Assembly (NCBI RefSeq): GCF_024580145.1
Contig: NZ_JANINI010000006.1
Span: forward strand, 49,594 to 112,181
Source: Methyloversatilis sp. XJ19-49
GTDB lineage: Bacteria; Pseudomonadota; Gammaproteobacteria; Burkholderiales; Rhodocyclaceae
Direction: 5' to 3'
DNA: 62,588 nucleotides
Shown: piece by piece, positions 30,439-36,557 of the stretch
Layout of the letters: every line of letters begins with the position of its first letter
Numbering within the stretch: position 1 is the first letter of the stretch
Program-made: the position numbers and the translations under genes
The notes under the pieces: generated by a model
Told to the model about the DNA's origin: nothing
The model's database searches: none
What the model saw: the letters and a program-made list of their open reading frames with translations, nothing else

Positions 30439-31533
30439 TCAGAGCGTGGAAAACAGGCCACGGATATTGAAAAGTGGCGAAGTGTATTCACGGTCCAGTC
30501 CCTGGTCATTTTCGTGGTGATACTGGGCAATGCGACGCACTTCTTCGCTCGATCCGAAGATCAGTGGCGTGCGCATCTGCAGACTGCGCGGTGGCAGTTC
30601 GAGGATGCGGGTTCGGCCGTTGGTCGCCTCGCCACCGGCCTGCTCGATCAGAAAGGCAATCGGATTGGCTTCGTACATCAGCGAAATACGGCCCGGCGGC
30701 TGCGACGGCATGGTGTCCGCCGGATACATGATGACGCCCCCGCGCGTCAGTACGCGATGGGTTTCAGCCACCAGCGAAGCGATCCAGCGCATGTTGAAGT
30801 CGGTGTTGCGCGGGCCGGTCTGGCCAGCCAGACACTCCTCGACATAGCGTTTGACCGGCGGTTCCCAGAAGCGCGATTTCGATGCATTGATCGCAAATTC
30901 GTTGGTTTGCGCCGGAATGCGCATCTTCGGATGGGTCAGGATGAAGGCGCCGATGTCGCGGTCGAGCGTGAATCCGTCAACGCCTTCGCCGGTGGTCAGC
31001 ACCAGCATGGTCGAAGGGCCGTACAGCGCATAGCCGGCGCACACCTGTTCGGTTCCCGGCTGCAGAAAGTCCGATAACTGCGGCTCGGCGCCCGGGTTTG
31101 GTGCGTGCAGCACCGAAAAAAGCGTGCCGACAGTCAGATTCACGTCGATGTTGTTGCTGCAGTCCAGCGCATCGAACAGCAACAGATATTTGCCGCGCGG
31201 CGACTGTTCCGGCGTGGGGATGAAGCCGTCGAGGCCGTCAGGTGCGAGCGCCGCAAGATGACCGCCCCATTCGCATTCGCGCTGCATCGCCTCGTTTGCG
31301 ATGGTGTCGAGCTTCTGCGTGACGTCGCCTGCCAGATTGATGGCGGCGCCGCTGCCAATCGCCTCGAAGCTGCCGAGCGAGCCGACCAGCGCGCCCTTGT
31401 TTACATTATTGGCGATGATTTTCACCGCCGTCGCAACCGCGTTCAACAGACTCGAAAAGATCCCGCTGGCTTGCGGGTGTCTCTGCTGGGCCTCGATGGT
31501 GTAACGCGTGAGGGTCTTGCGCCCTTCGATCAT
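30439..31533 (-). CDS. fbp: Class I fructose-1,6-bisphosphatase
   Basis: 364 residues. Hydrolyses fructose-1,6-bisphosphate (and often sedoheptulose bisphosphate) in the Calvin cycle and gluconeogenesis. Seen: TLTRYTIEAQ, NKGALVGSLGS, CEWGGHLAAL, KYLLLFDALDCSNNIDVN, YALYGPSTMLVLTTG and GGVIMYPADTM. The family metal motif is normally DPLDGSSN; here it reads DALDCSNN, keeping both aspartates but changing three neighbours. The ribosome site AAGGAGG precedes the ATG, and a sigma-70 promoter candidate lies 31-59 bases upstream. Confidence 0.94.
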   Translation of the reverse strand: MIEGRKTLTRYTIEAQQRHPQASGIFSSLLNAVATAVKIIANNVNKGALVGSLGSFEAIGSGAAINLAGDVTQKLDTIANEAMQRECEWGGHLAALAPDGLDGFIPTPEQSPRGKYLLLFDALDCSNNIDVNLTVGTLFSVLHAPNPGAEPQLSDFLQPGTEQVCAGYALYGPSTMLVLTTGEGVDGFTLDRDIGAFILTHPKMRIPAQTNEFAINASKSRFWEPPVKRYVEECLAGQTGPRNTDFNMRWIASLVAETHRVLTRGGVIMYPADTMPSQPPGRISLMYEANPIAFLIEQAGGEATNGRTRILELPPRSLQMRTPLIFGSSEEVRRIAQYHHENDQGLDREYTSPLFNIRGLFSTL

Positions 31534-31563: not shown

Positions 31564-31592
31564 ATCCTAGCCGTCGACCGCCGTGCTGTCAC
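31564..31592 (-). promoter_or_regulatory. Candidate sigma-70 promoter of fbp
   Basis: On the - strand GTGACA (31592-31587), a 17-base spacer and TAGGAT (31569-31564) precede fbp by about 30 bases. The predicted start near 31557 leaves a short leader with the strong ribosome site. It lies downstream of the terminator at 31692-31727, so fbp need not depend on the upstream small transcript. Confidence 0.45.
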
Positions 31593-31691: not shown

Positions 31692-31727
31692 AAAAAAATA
31701 CCCCGGGCTCTTGCGAGTCCGGGGTAT
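31692..31727 (-). terminator. Strong intrinsic terminator of the small RNA
   Basis: ATACCCCGG (31727-31719) and CCGGGGTAT (31706-31698) form a perfect 9-base-pair stem, extended inside by CTC/GAG closed by a GCAA tetraloop, and followed by seven T residues (31698-31692). Stem, tetraloop and T run are all on the - strand. It has no function on the + strand. Confidence 0.85.
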
Positions 31728-31865
31728 GAATCCACAAACAAGGTTGTGGAGGAGGAGCCTGGGTCACCTGTCGATTCTTGTTGAGCAGACAGGCTTTGAC
31801 GCTAAAATCGTGGGCTTCCGAAAACGCGCTGCAGTTTTGATGCGCTTCGTTTTCGACCGCTGTTG
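31692..31865 (-). ncRNA. Putative structured small RNA between cbbR and fbp
   Basis: A predicted transcript of about 174 bases with its own promoter and terminator and no plausible reading frame. Three stems are visible before the terminator. First, CGAAAACG (31855-31848) pairs with CGTTTTCG (31826-31819). Second, CCTGTC (31793-31788) pairs with GACAGG (31772-31767). Third, TCCACAA (31750-31744) pairs with TTGTGGA (31737-31731). Between the second and third lies an unpaired pyrimidine run CCCAGGCTCCTCCTCC (31763-31748), complementary to Shine-Dalgarno sequences. It resembles no RNA family I know and is not like 6S RNA. It could instead be an attenuated leader of fbp, but fbp seems to have its own promoter. 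Confidence 0.55.
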
Positions 31866-31871
31866 CAGTGC

Positions 31872-31899
31872 AATATATCTGGAATCAGCCGTGGTTCAA
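31872..31899 (-). promoter_or_regulatory. Candidate sigma-70 promoter of the small RNA
   Basis: TTGAAC (31899-31894), a 16-base spacer and TATATT (31877-31872), on the - strand. The predicted start is near 31865. The -10 is five of six to consensus, unusually good for this G+C-rich sequence. Confidence 0.55.
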
Positions 31900-31910
31900 A
31901 ATAAGTTGTT

Positions 31911-31923
31911 TTGATACGATCAA
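31911..31923. promoter_or_regulatory. Candidate CbbR (LysR-type) binding box
   Basis: TTGAT-ACG-ATCAA is a perfect 5-base inverted repeat that also fits the LysR-family T-N11-A rule. It lies 25 bases before the cbbR start and about 52 bases before the predicted small-RNA start on the other strand. This is where a LysR regulator would repress its own gene and activate a divergent one. The arms also match FNR half sites, but the spacer is 3 rather than 4 bases. Confidence 0.5.
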
Positions 31924-31947: not shown

Positions 31948-32892
31948 ATGACGACCCAGTGGACACGAGGCGTGTCGCTACGCCAGTTACGGATATTCGA
32001 AGCGGTCGCCCGTCTGGGGTCGATTTCGCGCGCTGCCGAAGAACTGCATCTGACACAACCCGCAGTCTCGATGCAGGTGAAGGCGCTCGATGGGCTGATC
32101 GGGCTGCCGCTTATCGAAACCCTGGGCAAGAAGCTGCGGGTGACCGATGTCGGCATGGAAATCGCCCGTCACGCACGTGCCATCGAACACCAGCTGGCCG
32201 AGGCGGAAGCCGCGCTCGCCCAGATGGCGAGCGGTCACGCCGGACTGGTGTCGGTTGGCGTGGTCAGCACTGCGAAGTACATCGCGCCGAAGCTGCTGAT
32301 GGCTTTCCGCGAGCGCTTTCCGGACGTGCAGGTCCGCATTTCGCTGCACAACCGCGACGACATCTTCCGCCAGCTGGAAGACAACCTGATCGACCTCGCC
32401 ATCATGGGGCGCCCGCCGGCTGCATTGGGTTGCGAGGCGCATGTGTTCGCCGAGCATCCGCTGTCCATTCTCGCCTGCGAAGGTCACCCGCTGACCGGCG
32501 GCGGCATGGCCAGCACCGAGGATCTGGGGCGCGAAGCCTTCCTGATCCGCGAACGCGGATCAGGTACGCGGGTGACCCAGGAAAGCTTTTTGATCGAACA
32601 CGGCATTCGCCCGACCGAAATCATCGAGCTGCCCAGCAACGAGATCATCAAGCAGGCCGCAATTGCGGGAATGGGGCTGGCGTTCCTGTCGGAGCATACC
32701 TGCCAGCTCGAACTGCGGACTGGCGTGCTGCGCCGGATCGCTGCACCGGGCACGCCGGTAATCCGCAACTGGCATGTGGTCTATCGCGACCGCAAGAACC
32801 TGCTGCCAGCCGCCCAGGCACTGCGCGATTTCCTGCTGGCAAGGGGCGGCGGGCTGGTCAATGCACAGGTGACGTCCGCGCAGCCGGTGTGA
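31948..32892 (+). CDS. cbbR: LysR-type regulator of Calvin-cycle genes
   Basis: 314 residues. N-terminal winged helix-turn-helix (about 8-67: VSLRQLRIFEAVARLGSIS, RAAEELHLTQPAVSMQVKAL), then a periplasmic-binding-like effector domain (VSVGVVSTAKYIAPKLLMAF, LAIMGRPP, FLIRERGSGTRVTQESF). These motifs and the divergent position to fbp-prkB-tkt are typical of CbbR, which senses metabolites such as NADPH or phosphoenolpyruvate. The upstream gap is AT-rich and holds a LysR-type box. Confidence 0.9.
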   Translation: MTTQWTRGVSLRQLRIFEAVARLGSISRAAEELHLTQPAVSMQVKALDGLIGLPLIETLGKKLRVTDVGMEIARHARAIEHQLAEAEAALAQMASGHAGLVSVGVVSTAKYIAPKLLMAFRERFPDVQVRISLHNRDDIFRQLEDNLIDLAIMGRPPAALGCEAHVFAEHPLSILACEGHPLTGGGMASTEDLGREAFLIRERGSGTRVTQESFLIEHGIRPTEIIELPSNEIIKQAAIAGMGLAFLSEHTCQLELRTGVLRRIAAPGTPVIRNWHVVYRDRKNLLPAAQALRDFLLARGGGLVNAQVTSAQPV

Positions 32893-34350: not shown

Positions 34351-35073
34351 ATGAATCCACGCTTCTTTTGCCCTCTCCCCGATGAACCCCAGGGCGAGCT
34401 GTTGCTGCCGGCGGCGGTGGCCCACCATGTTGAACGCGTGCTGCGTCTGTCGTCCGGCGATTTGCTGACCCTGTTCGACGGTCGCGGTTTCGAAGTCGAG
34501 GCCCGACTCGAAGGCAAGGGTCGCGATCTCAGGGCAGTGCTCGGCGAGCGCCGCGCGCCGCTGCGCGAGCCCGCGCTGCGAATCACGCTGATGCAGTGTC
34601 TGGCCGCGTCGGACAAGATGGACTGGATCGTGCAGAAGGCCGTCGAACTGGGGGTTGCGCGGGTGCAGCCTGTGAGCTGCCGGCGCGCCGTCGTGCGCCT
34701 GGCCGGCGACCGTGCCCAGCGCCGGGTGGAACACTGGCGCCAGATTGCCGTGGCTGCCTGTGAACAGTGCGGCCGCAATGTCGTGCCCGAAGTGCGGCCG
34801 CTGCTCTCCTTCGAACAGGCCGTCGCGGGTGCCGACGGGCAGCGCCTGCTGCTGCACCCGGAAGGTGGGGTGTCGCTGCGCTGCGCGGGTCTGAAAGCCG
34901 ATCAGCCGATCAGCCTGCTGATCGGTCCGGAAGGCGGTTTCGACCACGACGAACTGCGGGTCGCGCGTGGCAGCGGGTTTGCCGCGCTCACTCTCGGCCC
35001 GCGCGTTTTGCGCACTGAAACTGCAGGTGCGGCCGTCGTGGCCGCGCTCAACGCCCTGATCGGAGATTTCTGA
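34351..35073 (+). CDS. rsmE: 16S rRNA m3U1498 methyltransferase
   Basis: 240 residues. SPOUT-class methyltransferase acting on uridine 1498 of 16S rRNA. Seen: HVERVLRLSSGDLLTLFDGRG in the N-terminal PUA-like part, MDWIVQKAVELGV, and the knot motifs SLLIGPEGGFDHDEL and TLGPRVLRTETA at the SAM site. Its stop overlaps the next start by one base (TGATG). Confidence 0.95.
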   Translation: MNPRFFCPLPDEPQGELLLPAAVAHHVERVLRLSSGDLLTLFDGRGFEVEARLEGKGRDLRAVLGERRAPLREPALRITLMQCLAASDKMDWIVQKAVELGVARVQPVSCRRAVVRLAGDRAQRRVEHWRQIAVAACEQCGRNVVPEVRPLLSFEQAVAGADGQRLLLHPEGGVSLRCAGLKADQPISLLIGPEGGFDHDELRVARGSGFAALTLGPRVLRTETAGAAVVAALNALIGDF

Positions 35074-36557
35074 TGTTCGATTCGCTGCCCCCGTTCGAAG
35101 CGATGGATGAAGACCGGTTCGATCGGGCGGTTGCGCGGCTGCGTGCCGACCTGCTCGATGCGCAGTACTCGATCCTGGAACATGCACGCACGCCGGTCAT
35201 TCTGCTGATCGCCGGCGTGGCAGGCGCCGGGCGCGGCGTGGTGGTCAATACGTTGAATGAGTGGATGGACCCGCGCCATATCCGCACCAGTGCGTTCGGG
35301 GCGCGTGACGAAGCCGCACGTCTGCGACCCCACATGTGGCGTTTCTGGCAGGCATTGCCGTCGCGCGGGCGTACCGCCATCATGTTTGAAGCCTGGTACA
35401 GCGAGGTCATTCGCGACCGCGTCGACCGCCGCATCAAGCGGCCGGCGTTCGGCCGCACCCTGCAGTCGATACGCCGTTTCGAGCACATGCTGGCGATGGA
35501 AGATGCGGTGGTGCTCAAGTTCTGGCTGCATCTGGACGCCGACACGCAGCGTGCCCGCTTCAAGGTGCTCGAAAAGGACGCTGCAACGCGCTGGCGCGTC
35601 ACGTCGGAGGACTGGCACGAACACCGTCGTCACCGCAGGCTGTGCAAGGTGGCGGAAGAAGCGATCCGCGAGACGGACGACCCGCATGCGCCGTGGCATC
35701 TGATCGACGCACGGGACCCCCGTCTGTGCGAACTGGCGGTGGGTCGCGTCGTACTGCGCGCGTTGCGTGCCACGCTGGCAGGGCGTCCGCCGCGACCGGC
35801 GCCGTTGCCGCCGCCTTCGATGGCAGTGGCCGAGGCGCCGGCGGCACCGGTCGGCGAAGCAGCGGCCCAGTCAAAGCCGATGACCAAGGCGCAATACCAG
35901 CCTGCGCTGGAAGCCCTGCAGGGGCGGTTGAACCTGTTGCTGCGTCAGCCGGCTTTCGAAGATCGCGCGCTCGTGCTGGTGTTCGAAGGCATGGATGCAG
36001 CCGGCAAGGGGGGCGCGATCCGCCGCATCACCCATGCACTCGATGCGCGGTATTACCGCGTGCATCCGGTGGCGGCGCCGTCCGAACATGAGCGCAAGTA
36101 CCCCTGGTTGTGGCGCTTCTGGCGCGATGTGCCACGCAACGGCCGGGCGGCACTGTTCGACCGCTCCTGGTACGGCCGGGTGCTGGTCGAGCGGGTCGAA
36201 GGCTTTGCCGAGCCGGATGAATGGGCGCGCGCCTACGACGAAATCAACGCCTTCGAGCAGGAATGGGTGGCGCATGGCGCCATCGTCTGCAAGTTCTGGC
36301 TCGACGTCAGCCCCGACGAACAGCTGAAGCGCTTCAACGAGCGCAGTCGTACCCGGTTCAAGCGCTTCAAGATCACGCCGGATGACTGGCGCAACCGCGA
36401 AAAGTGGCCGGCCTATCTGCCGGCAGTGCGCGACATGCTGGCGCGCACGCACACCGAGGCGGCGCCGTGGGCGTTGATCGGCTCGGACGACAAGTACCGC
36501 GCCCGCCTCGACATCCTGCAAACCGTCTGCGACCGTCTCGAATCCGCGATCGGCTGA
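35073..36557 (+). CDS. pap: Polyphosphate:AMP phosphotransferase, two PPK2 domains
   Basis: 494 residues made of two PPK2-family kinase domains, the class II plan that converts AMP to ADP with polyphosphate. The C-terminal copy has a good Walker A (FEGMDAAGKGGAIRR, Gly306-Gly313) and the lid motif FDRSWYGRVLVERVEGF. The N-terminal copy has a changed P-loop, GVAGAGRGVVV at 48-58, with Arg in place of the Walker lysine, so it is probably structural or regulatory. A proline/alanine-rich linker (about 235-270) joins the halves. It is translationally coupled to rsmE. Confidence 0.92.
   Translation: MFDSLPPFEAMDEDRFDRAVARLRADLLDAQYSILEHARTPVILLIAGVAGAGRGVVVNTLNEWMDPRHIRTSAFGARDEAARLRPHMWRFWQALPSRGRTAIMFEAWYSEVIRDRVDRRIKRPAFGRTLQSIRRFEHMLAMEDAVVLKFWLHLDADTQRARFKVLEKDAATRWRVTSEDWHEHRRHRRLCKVAEEAIRETDDPHAPWHLIDARDPRLCELAVGRVVLRALRATLAGRPPRPAPLPPPSMAVAEAPAAPVGEAAAQSKPMTKAQYQPALEALQGRLNLLLRQPAFEDRALVLVFEGMDAAGKGGAIRRITHALDARYYRVHPVAAPSEHERKYPWLWRFWRDVPRNGRAALFDRSWYGRVLVERVEGFAEPDEWARAYDEINAFEQEWVAHGAIVCKFWLDVSPDEQLKRFNERSRTRFKRFKITPDDWRNREKWPAYLPAVRDMLARTHTEAAPWALIGSDDKYRARLDILQTVCDRLESAIG

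Follow-up and report, generated by a model that had tools for sequence, protein, structure and literature searches.

A conserved small RNA between cbbR and fbp of Methyloversatilis with kinship to RF02278 and a putative PhaR operator

Our results point to a small RNA (sRNA) between cbbR and fbp in Methyloversatilis sp. XJ19-49 that, judged from its sequence, is a conserved gene. Its 3′ half is a divergent, sub-threshold relative of RF02278, and its best-supported control signal is a putative PhaR (PHB) operator. We consider it about 60% probable that this is a trans-acting RNA of the RF02278 kind, made from a PhaR-controlled promoter and restraining carbon use at times of carbon surplus. The window, that is, the whole stretch of DNA that we analyzed, is 62,588 nucleotides long; the features discussed below are collected in Table 1.

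Table 1. Features of the cbbR–fbp region, in window coordinates
Feature	Position	Strand	Remarks
fbp (class 1 fructose-bisphosphatase), 3′ neighbor	30439..31533	-	
fbp promoter GTGACA-17-TAGGAT	31564..31592	-	promoter scan; conserved in relatives
sRNA gene	31692..31866	-	kept in 12/13 Methyloversatilis genomes; fold z -3.4; both ends predicted
Conserved 3′ domain: stem 2, linker, stem 3, terminator	31692..31800	-	95% mean column identity, 12 sequences
RF02278-like double-hairpin part	31692..31757	-	sub-threshold Rfam match
Intrinsic terminator, seven T	31692..31727	-	fold; compensatory change in 2/12 pairs
Stem 3, UCCACAA/UUGUGGA, loop CCUUGU	31731..31750	-	7 pairs invariant in 12/12
Linker AGGCUCCUCCUC, Shine-Dalgarno-complementary	31749..31760	-	invariant 12/12; last two bases in stem 3 foot
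PhaR-type operator TTGCACTGCAA over -10 and transcription start	31863..31873	.	arms invariant 12/12
Sigma70-like promoter TTGAAC-16-TATATT	31872..31899	-	-10 invariant; -35 weak, variable
CbbR-type TNA-N7-TNA site (TCAAAACAACTTA), about -49 to -37	31902..31914	-	TCA-N7-TTA, 12/12 relatives
cbbR (LysR family), divergent neighbor	31948..32892	+	best NCBIfam match CbbR; Pfam LysR domains

A conserved RNA with its own promoter and terminator

The sRNA element is present in the window's genome and in 11 of the 12 other genomes of the genus, and in none of the 48 genomes outside it (61 genomes searched). The sole genus genome without the element (G007) also lacks a matching fbp: the closest fbp there has 56% identity, compared to 88–100% in the other genus genomes. 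The fold of 31866–31692 has a free energy of -59.9 kcal/mol, which none of 200 shuffles equaled. Conservation is uneven along the RNA. The 5′ part of about 65 nt varies among the 12 genus copies and the last 109 nt are near-invariant.

The preliminary description of this locus listed three stems. Stems 2 and 3 and the terminator are paired in 100% of cells (12 genus sequences, 29 pairs). Stem 1 (CGAAAACG/CGTTTTCG) is seen by eye in just 4 of 12 rows and hence is no common feature. Two-sided changes occur in 3 of the 29 pairs, in one genome per pair, and fall within stem 2 and the terminator. Four of five covariation measures were reached by no shuffle, and the fifth (further pair types) by 83 of 500; slid controls were lower in all five. 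We rate this covariation as modest, because kinship alone can beat such shuffles. A covariance search had been suggested as a check. With the 109-nt 3′ part as the model and filters that lose weak matches, we searched 297 family genomes and obtained 12 matches at 127–139 bits, all in Methyloversatilis, and 25 other genomes with at most 39.1 bits.

One could also argue that a strong terminator and a pyrimidine stretch have been conserved by chance, and that no regulatory RNA exists. Much of the strongest conservation does lie in the terminator half. However, a block of 36 nt is invariant in 12 genomes and 34 nt of it precede the terminator stem, stem 2 and the terminator contain compensatory changes, and there are Rfam-like relatives. 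We regard chance conservation as very improbable.

A coding role of the sRNA was considered and rejected. Nine of the 12 copies, including that of the window, contain no ATG; the other three hold frames of 3–5 aa, and one of these (L010) also has a 60-aa frame that passes the terminator.

The minus-strand promoter of the preliminary description is present, in a region where the promoter scan found 3 promoter-like sites in 2.5 kb against 0.5 expected. The terminator is visible in the fold as described, with a mismatch in addition: a 9-pair stem, the mismatch, CTC/GAG, the GCAA loop, and seven T. A simple terminator scan misses it, and the internal mismatch is the probable cause. The separate fbp promoter past the terminator is found in all 12 relatives as GTGACA-N17/18-TA[GC]GAT, 30–31 nt upstream of the fbp ATG in the 10 relatives with an anchored ATG. 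Because this promoter is conserved throughout, an sRNA separate from the fbp mRNA is the natural reading, and the proposed transcription unit of its own stands as a predicted, conserved RNA gene with promoter and terminator.

Alternatively, the element could be a leader with an attenuator, in which most CbbR-activated transcription ends at the terminator and a remainder continues into fbp; the sRNA would then be a by-product. The two genes are on the same strand, just 158 nt separate the T-run from the fbp start codon, and the promoter and LysR-type site adjoin cbbR, where the promoter of a cbb operon would be expected. What makes this improbable is that all 12 genomes have a separate fbp promoter, that the linker and stem 3 are conserved beyond the needs of an attenuator, and that comparable elements are found at different loci in other genomes.

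Kinship to RF02278

At gathering scores, no Rfam family matches anywhere in the window. At a relaxed threshold, RF02278 matches the sRNA with 35.7 bits (E 5.7e-6), and the 12 genus copies score 34.2–37.9 bits. These values are below the gathering score of 50, so that by the curated score the sRNA is not a member of RF02278. The cmscan alignment nevertheless has the same order of parts in both, CUCCUCCUCCAC, hairpin, GUGGAUUC, terminator, and an order test for RF02278 (CU-rich stretch, GUGGAUU-closing hairpin, terminator) finds this order in the window's sRNA. The second anti-ribosome-site motif of RF02278 (CUCC) is missing from the hairpin loop, where CCUUGU is invariant. A canonical RF02278 copy is located in the same genome (G000:C6:118774-118837; 66.7 bits), with a PhaR-type box of its own, GTGCGACGCAA, near -116. 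Anti-hemB (RF02837) also matches weakly over the same stretch of the sRNA (21.3 bits, E 0.0046), far below its gathering score of 49.5. PyrR, Yfr10, ClpQY promoter, ar14, and other weak Rfam matches are far below their cut-offs and were judged to be chance.

RF02278 RNAs are known mainly for slowing growth. The family comprises the Betaproteobacteria toxic sRNA or double-hairpin RNAs, such as ncS03, ncS05, ncS27, and ncS62 of Burkholderia cenocepacia (PMC4603805, PMC5688073). Since the 3′ half of our sRNA is a sub-threshold relative of a family already known from Burkholderia (PMC5688073), the earlier label “undescribed” has to be dropped. The window's sRNA shares with the B. cenocepacia RNAs a CU-rich anti-ribosome-site stretch, a short hairpin ending in GUGGAUU, and then a terminator; it differs in its longer 5′ part, in its place between cbbR and fbp, and in lacking the loop CUCC. 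According to PMC5688073, double-hairpin RNAs are tied to carbon metabolism: ncS03, ncS05, and ncS27 are higher in glucose medium, starvation, and biofilm, many of the predicted targets are carbon transport and metabolism genes, overexpression of ncS27 slows growth, and ncS27 is also processed out of a longer form.

RF02278 is further related to S17 of Bordetella pertussis, an RNA with a 190-nt long form and a processed 67-nt 3′ part that starts at the CU-rich stretch (PMC11722255). S17 represses by pairing at ribosome sites, which was demonstrated with compensating mutations. In contrast to the promoter proposed here, S17 is controlled by BvgA, and we liken it to the window's sRNA by description, not by letters (PMC11722255). 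The sRNA probably descended from the double-hairpin RNAs, and its sequence suggests that it may work like them.

Relatives outside the genus

Loci were available for 18 of the 25 genomes matched outside the genus. In 9 of the 18 a phasin ORF ends before the element (8 PF09361, 1 PF05597), and the CU-rich stretch starts 18–38 nt past the phasin stop in eight loci and 128 nt past it in the ninth (L103). These Rhodocyclaceae loci (L086, L088, L089, L092, L093, L094, L095, L102, L103) have the phasin gene followed by an RF02278-like CU-rich hairpin and a terminator; the elements are possibly small RNAs derived from the 3′-UTR. In another 8 of the 18, where the RF02278-like element was recognized by eye, TGC-N3-GCA lies exactly 34–35 nt before GTCTCC, and the preceding ORFs end 94–226 nt upstream. 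In the remaining locus (L101) the element follows a symporter gene and has no TCCTCC.

We also surveyed the 3′ side of one phasin gene per genome in 30 of the 51 phasin-positive genomes. TCCTCC occurs within 70 nt of the phasin stop in 7 of 17 genomes outside the genus, in 0 of 13 Methyloversatilis genomes, and in about 1% of random 70-nt pieces from the same loci. Methyloversatilis has no such RNA behind the surveyed phasin gene, but it has one between cbbR and fbp. Hence, the RNA may have moved from a phasin gene to the cbbR–fbp locus.

RF02278 is common in the wider order: it was found in 107 of 250 Burkholderiales genomes (E 1e-7 or better). In one genome (G043), at least eight copies exceed the Rfam cut-off, and two of these are separated by 0.4 kb.

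A PhaR-type operator over the start site

PhaR is a PHB-sensing regulator that is drawn off the DNA as PHB granules accumulate. The genome of the window has a phaR gene (G000:C1:46782-46964, PF07879, E 4.1e-31) and two phasin genes. The best-conserved part of the sRNA promoter, TATATTGCA(CT/CC/TC)GCAACAG, contains TTGC-N3-GCAA in all 12 genus copies. The center of this box is ACT in 10 copies, ACC in one, and ATC in one, a variation that stays within the R-N-Y of the published PhaR consensus. In all 12 copies the box has two mismatches to the Ralstonia eutropha consensus YTKNTGCRNYGCANMAR (PMC12849132). Footprinting of PhbF, the Herbaspirillum PhaR, gave the motif TG[N]TGC[N]3GCAA (PMC3206438).

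Looser patterns are common in the window. KTGCNNNGCAM occurs 11 times against 10.4 expected, the consensus with at most three mismatches 107 times against 86 expected, and several other sites have one or two mismatches. An independent matrix was built with the window's genome left out; it combines 62 boxes that precede RF02278 RNAs in 57 other PhaR-positive genomes. Its top site in the 62.6-kb window is 31858–31878 with 20.1 bits; the next site has 16.5 bits and the maximum of 20 shuffles is 17.2. In all 13 Methyloversatilis phaP loci the best site of the same matrix (23.2–24.9 bits) precedes the phasin start, and in 10 of the 13 it is the separately listed box. Part of the conservation of the sRNA site could be explained by its overlap with the core promoter.

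The association extends to Burkholderiales. With the same search settings, 172 of the 250 genomes are PhaR-positive. For 102 of the 107 genomes with RF02278 (74 PhaR-positive, 28 PhaR-negative), we read the 150 nt upstream of the best copy. The R. eutropha consensus with at most two mismatches is present in 58 of the 74 and 1 of the 28 (Fisher 1.7e-12, a value inflated by relatedness, since the PhaR-negative genomes are concentrated in few families: f15, f33–f35, f43, f47, and f50). With at most one mismatch the counts are 27 of 74 and 0 of 28. The core TGC-N3-GCA is found in 58 of 74 and 4 of 28 (Fisher 3.8e-9, inflated in the same way), where Markov shuffles average 7.6 and 1.2. Among core spacings, 3 is highest by far, followed by 6 (22 of 74) and 1 (18). 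The strict KTGCNNNGCAM occurs in 35 of 74 and 3 of 28, and in 7 and 0 for the stretch farther upstream. In the control stretch from -300 to -150, the consensus with at most two mismatches is also enriched in PhaR-positive genomes (17 of 74, against 0 of 28), so that part of the contrast reflects base composition. The core box is absent from 16 of the 74 PhaR-positive genomes, including all seven of f21 and both of f48. Taken with the promoter of our sRNA, these relatives suggest that the sRNA is switched by the PHB store.

Several PhaR-less genomes (L203, L211, L214, and L215 are examples) have another shared upstream motif, seen by eye around AATATTAGATAAT before GTCTCC, which may be a promoter or the site of a different regulator. 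A common upstream motif of three double-hairpin RNAs is mentioned in PMC5688073 (Fig. S3); it may be the PhaR-type box.

A CbbR-type site next to a weak -35

The preliminary description proposed CbbR control through a palindromic T-N11-A LysR box. What survives is a CbbR-type site, TCA-N7-TTA, conserved in 12 of 12 relatives. TNA-N7-TNA has been described as a CbbR motif, together with its relation to T-N11-A (PMC2942843). The palindrome itself (TTGAT..ATCAA) is present in the window, but by eye its left arm is not conserved, and we rejected it as a conserved operator. The CbbR-type site lies directly upstream of the weak, variable -35, an arrangement that fits an activated promoter.

This raises the possibility of an sRNA of the Calvin locus controlled by CbbR, in which PhaR is uninvolved and the conservation of TTGCACTGCAA is a constraint on the core promoter and start. 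Such a reading would explain why the CbbR-type site is kept in all 12 copies beside the weak -35 and divergent from cbbR, and why the sRNA is present in the 12 genus genomes with a matching fbp and absent from the one that lacks it. It does not account for a site that fits the PhaR consensus including its variable center and ranks first in the window by the independent matrix. Elsewhere, 17 of the 18 relatives examined lie behind phasin genes or PhaR-type boxes, and no TCCTCC was seen in the fbp loci that we read from the four genera whose fbp comes next in similarity (G016, with partial upstream sequence, G013, G019, and G028). Although more plausible than the attenuator, control by CbbR without PhaR seems unlikely to us.

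It had also been proposed that the RNA is a new regulatory arm of carbon fixation. This finds no support here: the best-supported signal is a PhaR-type operator, which the preliminary description did not mention, and no RuBisCO was found among the 20 ORFs scanned in the window, which contains further ORFs.

Possible targets

The claim that a pyrimidine stretch could pair with ribosome sites finds support in the invariance of the linker, which by complementarity can cover such sites. Genome-wide counts of candidate sites are less specific. GGAGGAGCC before ATG has 39 matches in 13 genomes compared to 24 for the reversed control, GGAGGAGCC..ATG has none in the window's own genome, and GGAGGAG before ATG is common (44–96 matches per genome).

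The one striking match concerns a PQQ-dependent dehydrogenase of the methanol/ethanol family (TIGR03075, 650 bits). Its gene carries GAGGAGGAGCCT in 9 of 9 genomes read, and GAGGAGGAGCCU, with 12 nt complementary to the linker, lies just 5′ of the dehydrogenase start in all nine readable genomes (7 nt farther in G012). GAGGAGGAGCCU is missing from neighboring dehydrogenase copies with other leaders in five genomes. In the window's genome and in G009, the copy read is at a contig end and has another leader (AAGGAGAAGCCA); in G003 the dehydrogenase is represented by a contig-end fragment, and no copy in G007 exceeds 55% identity. We treat the dehydrogenase as a lead to a target only, because GGAGGAG before ATG is common and the excess of GGAGGAGCC is modest.

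Other genes have similar sites. In three genomes (L327, L328, L329), the start of a cysteine-rich protein gene is preceded by GGAGGAGCCTG, which can pair with the linker over 11 nt. In six genomes (L269, L277, L278, L286, L290, L291), GGAGGAGCC belongs to a gene whose L290 copy matches NrdJ, the B12 ribonucleotide reductase.

A proposed brake on carbon use

From the conserved RNA, its promoter sites, and the association in Burkholderiales we infer how such an RNA could act. At carbon surplus PHB would build up and PhaR would leave the -10 and transcription start. The sRNA would then be made, possibly only with CbbR on the site by the weak -35. It would perhaps be trimmed to its 3′ part, as are S17 and ncS27 (PMC11722255, PMC5688073). 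The CU-rich linker would cover the Shine-Dalgarno sequence of target mRNAs and lower their translation, and the result would be a brake on further carbon uptake and oxidation, perhaps through a methanol dehydrogenase. PhaR can also activate, as it does for phaP3 of R. eutropha (PMC12849132), and hence its effect on the sRNA promoter could have either sign.

A similar arrangement is known from Sinorhizobium meliloti. The promoter of MmgR (alpha-r8) has a PhaR (AniA) site and is repressed by PhaR, and this RNA is also linked to PHB and phasins; it differs in belonging to another bacterial class and, at 77 nt, to another RNA family, and we compare the two by description (PMC8401924, PMC12542648). 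Control of an sRNA by PhaR is thus known. Possibly new are the link between RF02278 and PhaR and its general reach. Our searches of openly accessible literature listed no publication that connects RF02278 RNAs with PhaR or with phasins. Of the papers that name RF02278, PMC5688073 and PMC11722255 do not contain PhaR, PHB, or polyhydroxy; PMC4603805 has “phar” only inside “Pharmaceutical”; and in PMC7011215, which lists four RF02278 RNAs for Herbaspirillum seropedicae, PhbF and phasin are absent and PHB occurs only in a reference. Apart from Bvg control of Bordetella S17, the accessible parts of the cited literature state no switch for RF02278 RNAs.

A broader proposition is that, in all PHB-storing Burkholderiales, RF02278-type RNAs serve the PHB (PhaR) regulon as its RNA arm, turning the filling of the store into repressed carbon uptake and oxidation. 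They would be made either as stand-alone RNAs behind PhaR boxes or as 3′ ends of phasin mRNAs, and the Methyloversatilis copy, with a new linker, would have come under joint PhaR-type and CbbR-type sites beside Calvin genes. We see the odds for this general form as even. If the PhaR link is true, the PHB store becomes the signal to which the RF02278 family responds, its logic is to slow the use of carbon during a surplus, and sRNA-based control of PHB extends from alphaproteobacteria (MmgR) to betaproteobacteria. The link could also be relevant for bioplastic production strains.

Neighboring genes and other fbp loci

The product of cbbR scores 301.5 bits against the NCBIfam model for CbbR, below the curated cut-off of 450. 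Past fbp the gene order is prk, tkt, gap, pgk, pyk, fba. Near cbbR is a gene for polyphosphate kinase 2, which matches in two stretches (35073-36557, + strand). In two other genera (L059 of G028 and L062 of G015), the ORF that precedes fbp resembles, by eye, the large subunit of RuBisCO; in the window the position 5′ of fbp is taken by cbbR. In G019, another genus, a terminator and a CUCC stretch also precede fbp, and RF02278 is not among the matches listed there. The locus concerned (L058) has the CUCC stretch, a small hairpin, and the terminator between a promoter-like region and fbp, and this element may be an independent small RNA in the equivalent position.
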